Below, piece after piece: positions 17,644-22,503 of a DNA stretch of 24,286 nt. The notes below the pieces were generated by a model. The model was not told where the DNA came from, ran no database searches, and saw only the letters and a list, made by a program, of their open reading frames with translations. Source of the stretch: a virus. The position numbers and the translations under genes are program-made. The DNA lies in IMG/VR virus record IMGVR_UViG_3300036826_000062, positions 1-24,286 of that record; one strand, 5' to 3'. Positions within the stretch are counted from its first letter, which is position 1. Every line of letters begins with the position of its first letter.

Positions 17644-20600
17644 TCAGTGCTTGTCTTCGTCGGCATAGCTCGCCACCTCTTCCGGGTCGCAGTGAACGAC
17701 CACTCCCTCGACCAGCGGCTGCATCGCCGCTTCCATGTTGCTCTTCAGCCACTGCTTGCAGAGCGCCACGTCGCCCTGGTCGCACTCGGCGATGAGCTCA
17801 TCGTGAACCATCATCACCAGCCGTGCCGAAGGCACGCTTGACCTGGTGTCGTAGAGCCGTGTCATCGCCAGCTTGAAGCCGTGCGCCTCGACCATCTGCA
17901 CCGGCGTGTTGGCCTTGACGTTGTTGCTGAAGATGCGCCGACGACGACGCCCCGAGCCGCTGAAGTCGATGACCTCCGCCTCGTCGCCCCACGCTCCCAG
18001 GCCGCGGTGCCAGGCTCGGATGCCTGGATAGGTCTTGAAGAACAGACTGCGCTGGCGCTTGGCCTCGTCCTCGCTCAGCACGATGCCGTTCTTGCGCTGC
18101 TCCCGCCGAAAGGTATCCGCGCCTGCGCCGAACAGGAAGCCGAAGTTGATCGCCTTCGCTTCCTGGCGCGTGCAGCCCACCGCGGCGGCGGTCGCCGAGT
18201 GAATGTCGCCGCCCGGCGTGTTCAGAATCTGGCGCATGGTGCGGTCCTCGCTCAGCCACGCCGCGATGACGAGTTGCAGTTGCGAGTAATCGGCGCGGAC
18301 AAAGGCGCGACCTGGTCCTGGCCGAATGCTCTTGCGCGCCAGCGTCTCGTGCGGCAGTTGCTGCAGGTTGGGGTCAGCGCAGCTTGTGCGGCCCGTCTGC
18401 GCGCCGATCGGGTTGAACGACGCATAGATGCGACCGTCTGGCGCGACTGAGCTCAGCGTCTTCCGGAGCAGGCCCATGCACGTCCCTGCCGAGCGGTACC
18501 CGAGCAACGCGTCGATGATCGGATCGTCCGACTGTGCCTCCATCAGCGCGTCGATGCCCGTCGAGACGAGCTCGAGACCGCGCTCCTGCAGGATCGGCAG
18601 CACCTGGCTCGGCGAGCGCCAGTTGACGTTCACCCCGACGCCAGCGATGCCGTTGAGCTCCTGCAGCCGATCGTCTACCAGCGCCTCCTGCTCGGCGATG
18701 GCGCGCTTCAGGATGCCGACGTCGCACGGCACGCCGGCTGACGCCAGCCACCAGGTCGCGGCCTGGACGTTGCGCTCGAGATTCAGGCAGGACACCAGCG
18801 AGTCGGCGTCGGGGTCGGCAAAGAGCGCATCCTCGAGCGCGACCGCCGCAGCGTAGGTGACCCGCGCGTCCTCCGCGGCGTACGCGAGCTTGGCGTGCCG
18901 AAGGCTTCCTGGTGGGACGTCCCAACCGCGCTTCTGCTCGGTCTTAGCGACGTGCTCGTGCAGATGCCGCTTGGCGATGCCCTGCAGCCGATAGTCGACG
19001 TGCGCCTCTTCCGACTCCAGGACCATCGCCATCGTCTTGACGTCCAGGATTTTGGATGGCTCGACGCTCAGCCCGACCTGGGCCAGGAACGCCAGGTCGA
19101 ACAGGTACGTGTGCATCCTGACCGAGCCGACCTCGTCCAGGTAGCCTTGCAGCGCCGACCAGGGGTCGTTCGTCGGACTGTTGTGCGCGACAGCCCAGAC
19201 GTCGATGACGACGTGCGTCGCGCCGTCGGACAGGTTGATCGTCCGCAGCTTGTCGCGATGCGCGTCCAACCCGGTCGTCTCAGTGTCCAGCGAGCATGCC
19301 GCGGTGCTGAGCAGCGAGACCGCTTCGCTGAGCTCGACCATGTCCAGCACCGTCAGGTACTCGAGCGTCGGCGCAGCCAGGTCCGCGGCCTCGAGCCGAG
19401 CGAGCTCGCGCGCCGCCTTCGCTTCCGCCAATTTCGCGACCGCTTCGGGTGTTTTGGCCTTTGCTGTTCTAGCTGTTCCCGAGTTCCCCCCTCTAAAGAG
19501 GGGGGGAGAAAACCCCGGAACAGCTAGGTTTTCCTCAACCCCCCTTAAGGGGGGTTGCTCCTGGACCTGTTCCGGAATTCCAGAACCCGCCGGAACAGGT
19601 GGAACAGGTGGAACAGGTGGAACAGCTTCGGCCTCGTGGGTGATATGCACCTGGAGCGGAAGCCAGTACACGATCGCCTGACCGTGCTTGGCACTCTTGA
19701 CGTCGCCGCTCACGACCATCACCTTCAGGTTTTCCGTTACGGCGGCTTTCTGCTTGCCGCTTTTGACGGTCACCTCCGCGGACGTCTTGCCGTTCGCCTC
19801 GTTGGTCGCGCCCAGGTCGCGCAGCGCCTGGAGGATGACGCCCTGCAACCGCTCTTCCCTGGACTGGACCGCGCCGATCAGCTTGTACCGCTCGGTCTGC
19901 TTATCGAGTTCGAGCGTCAGCGGCTCGATGCTCGCCGACATCCTCGAGCGGCAGCGCAGGATACGCAGGTTAGTGGTGTCTTCGTCGCCCTTGAACGGCT
20001 CAATCTGCAGCAGGAGGTCGCAGTAGCCGCTGATGGCCGAGCTCCCACGCCCGGCGTCGCCGACGTCGCCACCGCTCTTGCGCGAGTGGCGCAGGATCAG
20101 CACCGCGAACCCGGCGTTGGCTAACCTGCGAATCTCATGCATCACCCCTGCCGCCTTGCCGGAGTGATCCTCTTCGTCCAGCCCGGCGACGACGCTCAGC
20201 GTGTCCAGGACGATGACGTCCACGCCACGTTCCTGACCCTGCTCGATCAGGTCATTAACGATCTGCGGAAGGTCCACGCCCACCGGCGTCTCGAAGTCGA
20301 AGACGGTGTAGAAGCCGTCTGACTCGCCCAGGTCGCTCAGCCCGTAGCGCACCAGGTTCTGCTGGAACGTTCCCACGCCCTCTTCGGTGACGTAGCCGAC
20401 GCGGATCGGACGCAGGATCGCCTTGCCGCAGTAGCTCTCGTCACCGGCTATCGCCGCGCGCAACCCCTCCAGCGCGAAGGTAGTCTTGCCCATCTTCACC
20501 TTGGCGACGAGCTCGGTCATCAGCCCTTTGCTCAGCCAGTCCTGGATCAGCCACTCGACCTGTTCCGCCGCCATCGCCATGACATCCGGCACGGAGTGCC

Positions 20601-21555
20601 ACTTCAAACCGCTAACCCCCTTAAGGGGGTTAGAAACTGCGTCTCTAGCTGTTCCGCTGTTCCCACCCCTATAGGCGGAATTCCGGAACAGCTTGACGCG
20701 GATGGGTGGAACCGACCGCTGCGCGGCCTCGCGGTAGCGAAACGCGGCGTTCCGCCGAGTCGAATACTTGTGCCAGCCGAGCGCCTCGTCGCGCTCCTTG
20801 AGGATGCTGGCGACCGCCTCCAGGTCGTGCAGCCCGGCGTCCCAGACCATACGCCCGATGTCGATGAGACCCTGGCTGCGGTCCGCGGCAGCGCCGACGC
20901 CGAGCCAGACCTGTTGCTGCTGCGCGTCCAGGTCAAACGGCAGATCGTCGTCCCACGCCTCGAGCGGCTCGTCGTTCACCGATTCTCGCTCGGTCAGGTA
21001 CGCCGCCTGGAAGTCTTCGATCCACTCGGGAGCCTCGACCGGCAGGACGCGGTCGACCCACTCGTACCGACGCCCGCTCTCGTGCATCGACGGTGGCGCG
21101 ACGCAGTAGCCGTCGCTCAGGACGTCGTAGCGACCGCGCTGCGCGTTGCGGACCGCTGGCATATCGCCGCGGAGGTAGAGCCAGTGCTCGTGCCCCTCGC
21201 CGCCGCCAGAGCGGAAGTGCATCGTCCGCGGCAGGCCCAGGCCGACGAAACGGGTCCACCACTCGGTCGAGTCTGGCGCGACGTCTACCAGTCCCGCGGG
21301 GCCGAGCGCGATGCCGACGTTGCCGTCGGGGTGCAGCGTCCACCAGGTCGCGATGGTCGCCTTGTCGGTCGTCGCCGACTGGTGCGCTTTGGGGCAGAGC
21401 TCGCCGATAGGGTGCTTGCCTGGCTTGCACTTGCCAGCCAGCTTGTACTTGTCGGGGCAAGCGCACTTGCCGTCGATGATCGGATAGAGGATGAGAACGG
21501 GGTAGCCGGCGTCGGCGTATCCGAGCGCTGCAGACAAGCATGTGCTTGTCTTCAC
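17644..21555 (-). CDS. Primase-polymerase / RepA-like helicase / 3'-5' exonuclease / family-A DNA polymerase fusion
   Basis: One 1303-residue chain carries a near-complete replication engine. Residues 10-185: archaeo-eukaryotic primase-polymerase domain, with the Cys cluster (C31, C33, C43, C54) and GKHP, VDVAPD (D91), SGGGEGHEHW and an APPSMHESGRRYEW strand. Residues 330-520: RepA/AAA_25-type ATPase, with Walker A VKMGKTT (K357) and Walker B VIVLD (D451). Residues 566-632: winged-helix-like. Residues 755-910: proofreading exonuclease, D757/E759, D820, Y892/D896. Residues 925-1303: PolA with motif A D1089, motif B R1130/K1134/F1138 and motif C HDE 1251-1253. There is no 5'-nuclease domain. 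GTG 21555 is chosen because GAGGG lies 7 nt upstream; an in-frame ATG at 21588 has a weaker site. Both main linkers contain palindromic repeats. Position 1142 is Phe where E. coli Pol I has Tyr766. Confidence 0.93.
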   Translation of the reverse strand: MKTSTCLSAALGYADAGYPVLILYPIIDGKCACPDKYKLAGKCKPGKHPIGELCPKAHQSATTDKATIATWWTLHPDGNVGIALGPAGLVDVAPDSTEWWTRFVGLGLPRTMHFRSGGGEGHEHWLYLRGDMPAVRNAQRGRYDVLSDGYCVAPPSMHESGRRYEWVDRVLPVEAPEWIEDFQAAYLTERESVNDEPLEAWDDDLPFDLDAQQQQVWLGVGAAADRSQGLIDIGRMVWDAGLHDLEAVASILKERDEALGWHKYSTRRNAAFRYREAAQRSVPPIRVKLFRNSAYRGGNSGTARDAVSNPLKGVSGLKWHSVPDVMAMAAEQVEWLIQDWLSKGLMTELVAKVKMGKTTFALEGLRAAIAGDESYCGKAILRPIRVGYVTEEGVGTFQQNLVRYGLSDLGESDGFYTVFDFETPVGVDLPQIVNDLIEQGQERGVDVIVLDTLSVVAGLDEEDHSGKAAGVMHEIRRLANAGFAVLILRHSRKSGGDVGDAGRGSSAISGYCDLLLQIEPFKGDEDTTNLRILRCRSRMSASIEPLTLELDKQTERYKLIGAVQSREERLQGVILQALRDLGATNEANGKTSAEVTVKSGKQKAAVTENLKVMVVSGDVKSAKHGQAIVYWLPLQVHITHEAEAVPPVPPVPPVPAGSGIPEQVQEQPPLRGVEENLAVPGFSPPLFRGGNSGTARTAKAKTPEAVAKLAEAKAARELARLEAADLAAPTLEYLTVLDMVELSEAVSLLSTAACSLDTETTGLDAHRDKLRTINLSDGATHVVIDVWAVAHNSPTNDPWSALQGYLDEVGSVRMHTYLFDLAFLAQVGLSVEPSKILDVKTMAMVLESEEAHVDYRLQGIAKRHLHEHVAKTEQKRGWDVPPGSLRHAKLAYAAEDARVTYAAAVALEDALFADPDADSLVSCLNLERNVQAATWWLASAGVPCDVGILKRAIAEQEALVDDRLQELNGIAGVGVNVNWRSPSQVLPILQERGLELVSTGIDALMEAQSDDPIIDALLGYRSAGTCMGLLRKTLSSVAPDGRIYASFNPIGAQTGRTSCADPNLQQLPHETLARKSIRPGPGRAFVRADYSQLQLVIAAWLSEDRTMRQILNTPGGDIHSATAAAVGCTRQEAKAINFGFLFGAGADTFRREQRKNGIVLSEDEAKRQRSLFFKTYPGIRAWHRGLGAWGDEAEVIDFSGSGRRRRRIFSNNVKANTPVQMVEAHGFKLAMTRLYDTRSSVPSARLVMMVHDELIAECDQGDVALCKQWLKSNMEAAMQPLVEGVVVHCDPEEVASYADEDKH
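19469..19527. repeat. Palindromic element A1 inside the replication gene
   Basis: An 11-bp perfect inverted repeat, CTAGCTGTTCC (19469-19479) and GGAACAGCTAG (19517-19527), encloses a second 9-bp stem, CCCCCCTCT/AGAGGGGGG (19486-19505). It is read in frame as codons for about residues 677-696 (LAVPGFSPPLFRGGNSG) in the linker between helicase and exonuclease. The ends match those of the elements at 20647 and 22385, but the core differs. Confidence 0.8.
19536..19557. repeat. Perfect 22-bp palindrome A2 (C6TTAAG6 core)
   Basis: The palindrome is a CCCCCCTTAAGGGGGG core flanked by CAA and TTG, perfect over 22 bp. It is read in frame as part of QPPLRGVEE in the same linker. No U-tract follows on either strand and it is inside a gene, so it is unlikely to be a terminator. 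It closely resembles the palindrome at 20612. Confidence 0.8.
19565..19600. repeat. Inverted repeat A3
   Basis: ACCTGTTCCGG (19565-19575) and CCGGAACAGGT (19590-19600) are perfect 11-bp arms around a 14-nt loop containing AATTCC. The arms share the CTGTTCCGG core of the other elements. It is translated in frame as the linker segment GSGIPEQVQ. Confidence 0.75.
19592..19627. repeat. Four tandem 9-bp units (GGAACAGGT x3, GGAACAGCT)
   Basis: Four direct 9-bp repeats are identical except for one base in the last. On the coding strand they read as a Val-Pro-Pro repeat (VPPVPPVPPVP, residues about 644-654). The first unit is the right arm of the inverted repeat at 19565. The repeats may have arisen by slippage from an element end, or may be binding sites (iterons). 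Confidence 0.85.
20612..20633. repeat. Perfect 22-bp palindrome B1 (C5TTAAG5 core)
   Basis: A CCCCCTTAAGGGGG core flanked by CTAA and TTAG gives a perfect 22-bp palindrome. It is read as SNPLKGVS in the linker between the primase-polymerase and helicase domains. It is a close relative of the palindrome at 19536 but is read in a different frame. Confidence 0.8.
20647..20693. repeat. Palindromic element B2, 47 bp, in the replication gene
   Basis: Terminal 10-bp inverted repeats AGCTGTTCCG and CGGAACAGCT surround a core with CCCCTATAGG and GGAATTCC. It matches the element at 22385-22431 at 44 of 47 positions. It is read as KLFRNSAYRGGNSGTA (about residues 288-303), in the linker between the primase-polymerase and helicase domains. 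Confidence 0.88.
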
Positions 21556-21614
21556 ATTGCCACCCTCGTCAGGTGGTCTACTATGCATATGTCGGGCTCA
21601 ACCCAAGCCTTTCT

Positions 21615-21660
21615 AACGAAGCGTCGCTTCCACCTGCAAAGCAGGAGCGGCGCTTTCGTT
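21615..21660. other. Long imperfect hairpin upstream of the replication gene
   Basis: The 113-bp gap between the nuclease and replication genes holds arms AACGAAGCGTCGCT (from 21615) and AGCGGCGCTTTCGTT (to 21660), plus an inner CCTGC/GCAGG stem with an AAA loop (21633-21645). There are small bulges and one G-T pair. In the plus direction it is followed by TTCGTTTTG, which is terminator-like. On the minus strand, the direction of the flanking genes, it has no U-tract and lies in the 5' leader of the replication mRNA. It may be a leader structure or a terminator of antisense transcription. No gene was found in this gap. Confidence 0.5.
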
Positions 21661-21679
21661 TTGTAAAGATTTCCGCGGT

Positions 21680-22066
21680 CTAGCGTACTCCCGCGTGACC
21701 CCTGAACGTCGAGACAATCTCGTCTCGATCGCGGGGCTTCCAGACCTTCCAGTCCAGGCCCGCGGCGACCAGCAAAGCCCCCCATCGACGCTGGTTGGCA
21801 TCGGGGTACTTGCCCTCGCCCTTGAGCTCGCGAAAGAGGATTCGGTCGCCGCGGACGAAAACCCAATCCGGCCAGCCGTCCGAGTCGTAGTGGTCGTCAC
21901 CTTTACCCAACGCATGGACGCCTGTTACAGCGCCCTTCGAGAACGCGACGTGCCAGCCGCACCACCCGTACAGGTGCGCGGTCGTCACCACGAACGACTC
22001 GAGCGCGTGCTCGTCCGGCGAGCGCAGGACGATCCTGGTCGGTGGCTTGCGCCGCGCCAGCGTCAT
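21680..22066 (-). CDS. VRR-NUC domain nuclease
   Basis: This 128-residue protein of the PD-(D/E)XK superfamily VRR-NUC type begins at ATG 22066, which shares a base with the upstream stop (TGATG). Earlier in-frame starts would run through the lysozyme-like gene and are rejected. The domain spans residues 20-120: ESFVVTTAHLYGW, then GWPDWVF (catalytic Asp), then FRELKGEG (catalytic Glu and Lys), then NQRRWGALLVAAGL and VWKPRDRDEI. This order is typical of small phage VRR-NUC proteins, which process branched DNA or recombination intermediates. Placement before the replication fusion supports that role. A TAG stop ends the gene, followed by the hairpin-bearing gap. Confidence 0.87.
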   Translation of the reverse strand: MTLARRKPPTRIVLRSPDEHALESFVVTTAHLYGWCGWHVAFSKGAVTGVHALGKGDDHYDSDGWPDWVFVRGDRILFRELKGEGKYPDANQRRWGALLVAAGLDWKVWKPRDRDEIVSTFRGHAGVR

Positions 22067-22503
22067 CAGCAGCGCCTGGACGTGACCGGCCACCGACCAT
22101 AGCCCAGGTTCCTCACTCCCCACGCCATCGCGTCGATGCTGGCGATGGGATCGGTCCTGGACGCACCGGCCTTGCCCTGCGGCGTCTCGTACCAGGTCGC
22201 CAGGTCGAACTGCGCCAGCCCCAGGTACGGTCCTGACCGCGCCCACGGTAGCCACGAGCTCTCGCCCTGAATCATGCAGTCCAGCTTGCGCGCCTGCCGC
22301 GGGTAGGTCGCGTACAGGTACGCCTTCGGCGTCATCGGCGGCGGCTGGAGACGCTCGTCGTCCACGAGCTCTGGCTCGAGATCGACCTGTTCCGCTGTTC
22401 CAACCCCTATAGGCAGAATTCCGGAACAGCTATCTGAGCACTCGTCCACACCATCGGTCAGAGCCTGCCCGACCAGGAGCAGACCAGCGAGTAAGACTGC
22501 CAT
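22066..22503 (-). CDS. Secreted lysozyme / lytic transglycosylase-like protein
   Basis: This 145-residue protein has a hydrophobic N-terminus (AVLLAGLLLVGQAL, residues 2-15) that looks like a signal peptide or signal-anchor. A linker follows that contains a palindromic DNA element (residues 25-40). The lysozyme-like domain spans about 60-145. E81 in QGESSW is the candidate catalytic acid; GLAQFD (95-100), TWYETP and a final WGVRNLGYGRW segment match small transglycosylase-like proteins. C76 and C145 could form a disulphide, which would suit export. The start is ATG 22503, 9 nt after the previous stop, with a poor ribosome site. A phage endolysin or SAR-type enzyme is possible, but the gene sits in the replication module rather than beside a holin. 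Confidence 0.75.
   Translation of the reverse strand: MAVLLAGLLLVGQALTDGVDECSDSCSGILPIGVGTAEQVDLEPELVDDERLQPPPMTPKAYLYATYPRQARKLDCMIQGESSWLPWARSGPYLGLAQFDLATWYETPQGKAGASRTDPIASIDAMAWGVRNLGYGRWPVTSRRC
22385..22431. repeat. Palindromic element C, 47 bp, in the lysozyme-like gene
   Basis: It differs from the element at 20647-20693 at only three of 47 positions, and the terminal inverted repeat (CTGTTCCG/CGGAACAG) is conserved. It is translated as SCSGILPIGVGTAEQ, a different frame from the other copy, directly between signal peptide and catalytic domain. Confidence 0.88.

Follow-up and report, generated by a model that had tools for sequence, protein, structure and literature searches.

The window considered here, that is, the whole stretch of 24,286 nucleotides that was analysed, is the viral record IMGVR_UViG_3300036826_000062 of IMG/VR (positions 1 to 24,286), and it harbors a replication gene, called rep in the following, and a lysozyme-like gene, each of which contains a copy of a 47-bp palindromic element. 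Pfam places the Prim-Pol, AAA_25, 3'-5' exonuclease and PolA domains of rep in one protein of 1314 amino acids (aa), and palindromes occupy the two linkers that flank its helicase part, with elements A and B in linker 1 and elements A, B and A' in linker 2, as shown in Table 1. The two 47-bp copies, at 20647–20693 (AGCTGTTCCGCTGTTCCCACCCCTATAGGCGGAATTCCGGAACAGCT) and 22385–22431 (ACCTGTTCCGCTGTTCCAACCCCTATAGGCAGAATTCCGGAACAGCT), are identical at 44 of 47 positions in a pairwise comparison, their flanks are unrelated, so that the likeness ends at the palindrome ends, and the pair was recovered with an E of 2e-16 in a BLAST of the region against the whole record, which excludes chance. The coordinates, the match and the peptides given for both copies in a first-pass annotation of this DNA were all reproduced, and its view that the likeness lies at the DNA level holds as well, the shared core being translated in different frames in the two genes. 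Only two copies had been described there; the pair is real, yet it belongs to a larger set, with three palindromes in linker 2 and one more in linker 1, all of them within rep.

The sequences AGCTGTTCC and GGAACAGCT are common to several of the rep-linker palindromes, and, of the perfect inverted repeats in the window, most of the longest lie in the intervals 20612–20693 and 19469–19627. The linkers are also the best folding windows of the rep gene, with sliding scores of z about −6.2 and −5.4. When the two 47-bp copies were folded as single strands, none of 200 dinucleotide shuffles reached an equal fold for the rep copy (z −4.3), and a weaker signal was observed for the lysozyme-gene copy, in which one outer pair is broken (z −1.9, 9 of 200 shuffles).

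Table 1. Features of the window, with the inverted TGTTCC arrays of other viral contigs in the last rows
Feature	Position	Strand	Remarks
rep gene	17644..21588	-	1314 aa; Pfam, PHROG, structure models
rep: Prim-Pol	aa 21-189
rep: AAA_25 RepA-like helicase	aa 341-506
rep: winged helix	about aa 575-650
rep: 3'-5' exonuclease	aa 747-918
rep: PolA	aa 976-1290
Linker 1 element A	20647..20693	-	47-bp dyad AGCTGTTCC...GGAACAGCT, core TATAGGGG; first copy of the pair
Linker 1 element B	20612..20633	-	hairpin CTAACCCCCTTAAGGGGGTTAG
Linker 2 element A	19565..19627	-	dyad; four TGTTCC at 9-bp period (coding strand) and one inverted word
Linker 2 element B	19536..19557	-	hairpin CAACCCCCCTTAAGGGGGGTTG
Linker 2 element A'	19469..19527	-	CTAGCTGTTCC...GGAACAGCTAG around a C6/G6 hairpin
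Winged-helix coding part, candidate reader of the word	19627..19881	-	predicted structure
Exchangeable cassette (from the linker-1 to the linker-2 sites, with AAA helicase and winged helix between)	19469..20693	-
Lysozyme-like gene	22066..22503	-	short protein, hydrophobic N-terminus
Extra copy of linker-1 element A	22385..22431	-	in the lysozyme-like gene; also in L005
Inverted TGTTCC arrays	L057:4662-4782, L068:1441-1570, L103:7839-7980, L129:2851-2974
Inverted TGTTCC arrays	L131:6633-6756, L137:6571-6698, L138:2420-2550

Linker words and cassette exchange among relatives

Protein searches of IMG/VR recovered as relatives L005 (96%), L006/L007, L140, L155, L175, L176, L177 and L179/L180, and no relative was found by protein in genome_contigs. 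A linker-1 palindrome is present in all six relatives readable in full (L005, L007, L155, L175, L177 and L179), palindromes occur at the same linkers in every readable relative, and the order A-B-A' of linker 2 is kept. Different half-site words were observed at these fixed positions, namely AGCTGTTCC in the window and L005; ATCTGTTCC in L007; CCTCTTCC in L140; GGTGGTWCC in L155, L175 and L176; GTTTCYTCTC in L177; and AGCCGTCC in L179. The word of a given phage group is missing from the linkers of the other word groups and concentrated in its own, which contain six of six occurrences of GGTGGTWCC within L155, five of five of GTTTCYTCTC within L177 and nine of 11 of AGCCGTCC within L179. Sharing of k-mers between linker 1 and linker 2 within a phage was the best of 720 partner reassignments (168 shared 6-mers against a mean of 98, and 129 shared 7-mers against 54.5). 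Arm complementarity is kept though the pair type changes at 52 of 54 and 68 of 80 pairs, counts that describe covariation rather than prove hairpins, as the arms were picked by eye. The linkers give the strongest folding signal of the rep gene in the window, L005, L007, L155, L140 and L175.

The linker-1 core TATAGGGG is kept across several phages with small changes and is read in different frames, as NSAYRGGNSGTA in the window, PNIGVGTGE in L155 and PPMGMGTG in L007, and is therefore conserved as DNA and not as protein. The B hairpins of several phages have a similar triloop and a changed stem, the linker-1 counterparts being CAACCCCCGGAGGGGGTTG (L007), CTACCCCCTTCGGGGGTAG (L155) and CAACCCCCTACGGGGGTTG (L175), and tandem direct repeats of 9 bp in linker 2 of the window and of 12 bp in linker 1 of L179 were also observed. 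The hairpin GGCTCC-TAC-GGAGCC is found in linker 2 of L177 (about L177:5023-5166) and of L179 (about L179:4949-5110), and other members have CAACCCCC-TAC-GGGGGTTG at this place, with the triloop the same and the stem replaced, which suggests a loop-dependent role of the TAC-triloop hairpin.

Differential conservation along the protein was observed for L155 and L175, whose residues are 99% identical in the primase, 97% in the polymerase and 51% in the AAA core. Their DNA identity falls at nt about 960 and returns at about 2215, which are the outer ends of linkers 1 and 2, and the same break points were found independently for L007 and L179; outside the cassette both pairs are mostly 90–100% identical. 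Break points at the outer linker ends indicate that the sites belong to the helicase cassette and not to the primase or the polymerase, and on these identity profiles the sites move between phages together with the helicase and the winged helix, as a single cassette. The word differs between L007 and L179 and is similar in L155 and L175. The N-terminal primase module of L007 and L179 (L007:7005-8000) is unrelated to the Prim-Pol of the window (20700-21588; about 19% identity), and its junction just upstream of linker 1 marks a second exchangeable module.

The copy in the lysozyme-like gene

No Pfam match was obtained for the product of 22066-22503, and a distant homologue in L007 (L007:5938-6423) matches PF06737 (Transglycosylas). 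This domain is typical of Actinobacteria, and its presence in the lysozyme-like family hints at an actinobacterial host. The homologues in L155 and L175, 65% identical to the lysozyme-like protein, do not have the 17 residues at the 47-bp element; the L007 homologue is too diverged (30%) for such a presence/absence test and was dropped in favor of these two. Since L155 and L175 are without the element and L005 has it, the gain most likely took place in the lineage of the window and L005, and the lysozyme-gene copy is most likely linker-1 element A duplicated from one palindrome end to the other, as a stray or auxiliary copy. The in-frame insertion into two genes proposed by the first-pass annotation thus stands for the lysozyme-like gene and fails for rep, in which linker 1 is occupied throughout and every readable relative has a palindrome.

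A proposed intragenic origin and its alternatives

The arrangement is best read as an intragenic cassette of replication origin or initiator sites, in which the phage's own replication protein would recognize the 47-bp palindrome, and a probability of about 0.6 is assigned to this reading, in which the binding, the reader and the origin function are all inferred from sequence and by analogy. Concerted, position-conserved and cassette-linked sites argue for initiator recognition sites rather than for a mobile palindrome of the Rickettsia type. The rep gene would carry its own initiator-binding sites, the A dyads together with the B hairpins, in the two linkers flanking the helicase, and these linker sites would most likely be the phage replication origin, comparable to the lambda ori within gene O. 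The likely reader of the sites would be the winged helix that precedes linker 2; once bound, the protein would load the RepA-like helicase joined to it, and the C5/G5 hairpins could be used for priming when the DNA is single-stranded.

For the 75 residues that precede linker 2, the predicted structure is a winged helix (AlphaFold, predicted local distance difference test, pLDDT, 85; H-S-H-H-S-S order), and this model resembles solved structures, with a best Foldseek E of 2e-3 and a VIA-align Z of up to 11.5 against winged helices of the PDB; the model of the whole helicase region is poor (pLDDT 53), and the winged helix alone is usable. Winged-helix identity is 51–87% in same-word pairs and 39% or less in all different-word pairs, and the identities of the AAA domain (77% for L140 and L155), the primase (95% for L007 and L179) and the polymerase (90% for L007 and L179) are not sorted by word. 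The winged helix adjoining linker 2 is probably the reader of the word, as far as identities and the predicted fold can tell.

Several results weigh against the origin reading and its proposed reader. No inflection of the cumulative GC skew was seen at the rep gene, and no strong AT-rich stretch lies by the sites, the linkers dipping only to 55–61% GC against 67%. The folding signal of the linkers is weak in L176, L177 and L179, and the by-eye choice of arms limits the covariation counts. In a Mantel test, linker-1 element similarity did not correlate significantly with winged-helix identity (p about 0.1, n = 6 lineages), so the winged-helix reader stays a lead, and with 5-mers the AAA domain equals or beats the winged helix among the six lineages.

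A wider form of the origin reading, which is possible but doubtful, makes the unit a self-contained specificity cassette, in which the linker palindromes would be both the recognition sites of the enclosed helicase and winged helix and the joints of the swap, each lineage would evolve a private word, and the palindrome could copy itself as a hairpin-bounded unit into a further gene, of which the lysozyme-like gene would be an example.

The winged helix may instead bind the palindromes as operators to control transcription of its own gene and not the start of replication; winged helices are common repressor folds, and concerted words and cassette exchange would suit any DNA-binding reader. This is unlikely, however, as the sites lie deep in the gene, where they occupy linkers flanking the helicase instead of a promoter, the polypeptide with this domain also contains a replicative helicase and primase, and an operator would have no need of the B hairpins.

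The first-pass annotation had favored a mobile or recombinogenic palindrome family that enters genes in frame, of the type of the Rickettsia palindromic elements (RPEs) or of tiny miniature inverted-repeat transposable elements. The lysozyme-gene copy is bounded exactly by the palindrome ends and missing from the L155 and L175 homologues, and its in-frame tolerance matches the description of RPEs (PMC2229807). No dispersed high-copy family was found, however: the exact 17-bp core occurs among other IMG/VR viral contigs in the near relative L005 only, the 26-bp core of the element has no match in genome_contigs, and only one copy lies outside rep. The rep positions are moreover fixed across lineages and their sequence is changed completely in concert, the opposite of a spreading family, and this explanation is accordingly judged quite improbable.

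Hairpins acting only as RNA in the rep messenger RNA, by pacing translation at domain borders, by processing or by autoregulation, would explain the compensating arms at interdomain borders and the B triloop that is similar in several phages while its stem changes, but they need neither a word common to separate linkers nor tandem 9-bp or 12-bp direct repeats. No Rfam family was matched, the search returning only sub-threshold chance matches to microRNA families, and an RNA role with no DNA role is very unlikely. Mutational homogenisation without function, with quasi-palindrome correction and gene conversion keeping the arms alike in linkers that are tolerant recombination joints, suits the exchange of modules at the linkers, where the primase types of the window and L007 differ, but is highly improbable, for it leaves unexplained the fixed positions, the A-B-A' order and the joint exchange of both linkers with the helicase.

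TGTTCC arrays in other viruses and comparison with known systems

Inverted arrays of the form (TGTTCCnnn)3, about 70–100 bp, (GGAACAnnn)3 were observed in unrelated viral contigs, as listed in Table 1. Most of those checked lie at most about 100 bp from primase-helicase genes (DUF5906, VapE, DUF927), the one in L057 falls within a Prim-Pol/D5 gene, at its C-terminal end, and the arrays resemble iteron origins that share a recurrent word. The sharing of TGTTCC with the window may be coincidence, given that other clade members use different words, and was not used; generic TGTTCC arrays were likewise rejected as evidence, as a scan for direct arrays matches many low-complexity genes. Long TGTTCC arrays of 9-bp period that encode repeats of the (CSG)n, (FLL)n or (QPE)n type were seen in L013, L018, L025, L039 and others, and no TGTTCC clusters were found in L156-L159, annotated phages with distant Prim-Pol/RepA proteins.

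The arrangement in rep appears to be a variant of the known intragenic phage origin or initiator-site module, with a predicted origin function that follows from sequence and analogy, and no earlier description of it was found in the open-access literature, to which the search was confined. If true, the reading predicts the replication start and the site-reading domain in an uncultivated phage clade, L155/L175 and L007/L179 would offer natural domain-swap pairs for a joint change of initiator and origin specificity, and rep would be a clear case of a fused replication protein whose linkers are shaped by signals in the DNA.

RPEs are 105–146 bp long, in frame within genes and dispersed over many genes (PMC2229807). 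The palindrome is likewise translated in frame within genes, but it is 47 bp long and has one stray copy, without dispersal in the window or genome_contigs, and the sites are position-conserved and of changing sequence; insertion missing from homologues, the further RPE trait, was found for the lysozyme-gene copy and not for rep. RSF1010 combines RepC iterons, the RepA helicase, ssi hairpins and the RepB' primase (PMC4234260), and rep resembles it in having repeated sites, a RepA-type helicase (a likeness at domain level only, AAA_25) and small hairpins, with putative priming, but here the functions lie in one polypeptide and the sites are intragenic.

The Prim-Pol plasmid pRN1 has a stem-loop origin in which symmetry matters and sequence is poorly conserved among relatives, and a winged helix in its replication protein, as in rep (PMC4234260); the N-terminal primase of its ORF904 is of the same family as those of the window, L155 and L177. 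The pRN1-type set is only partial in rep, where Prim-Pol and winged helix are present and the helicase is AAA_25 instead of superfamily 3 (SF3), and the single 100-nt stem-loop downstream of the gene in pRN1 is replaced by palindromes within it.

A close parallel is with lambda, whose ori lies in the middle of gene O; extra iterons lengthen the O protein of Shiga-toxin phages (PMC7466680). As with the lambda ori, repeated and here putative initiator sites are embedded in the gene that encodes the replication protein, with several copies of one word in this putative initiator gene. Unlike in lambda, that protein is a fusion of Prim-Pol, RepA-like helicase and PolA, and the sites stand in two linkers around the helicase as large dyads and C-G hairpins whose word is replaced completely between relatives.

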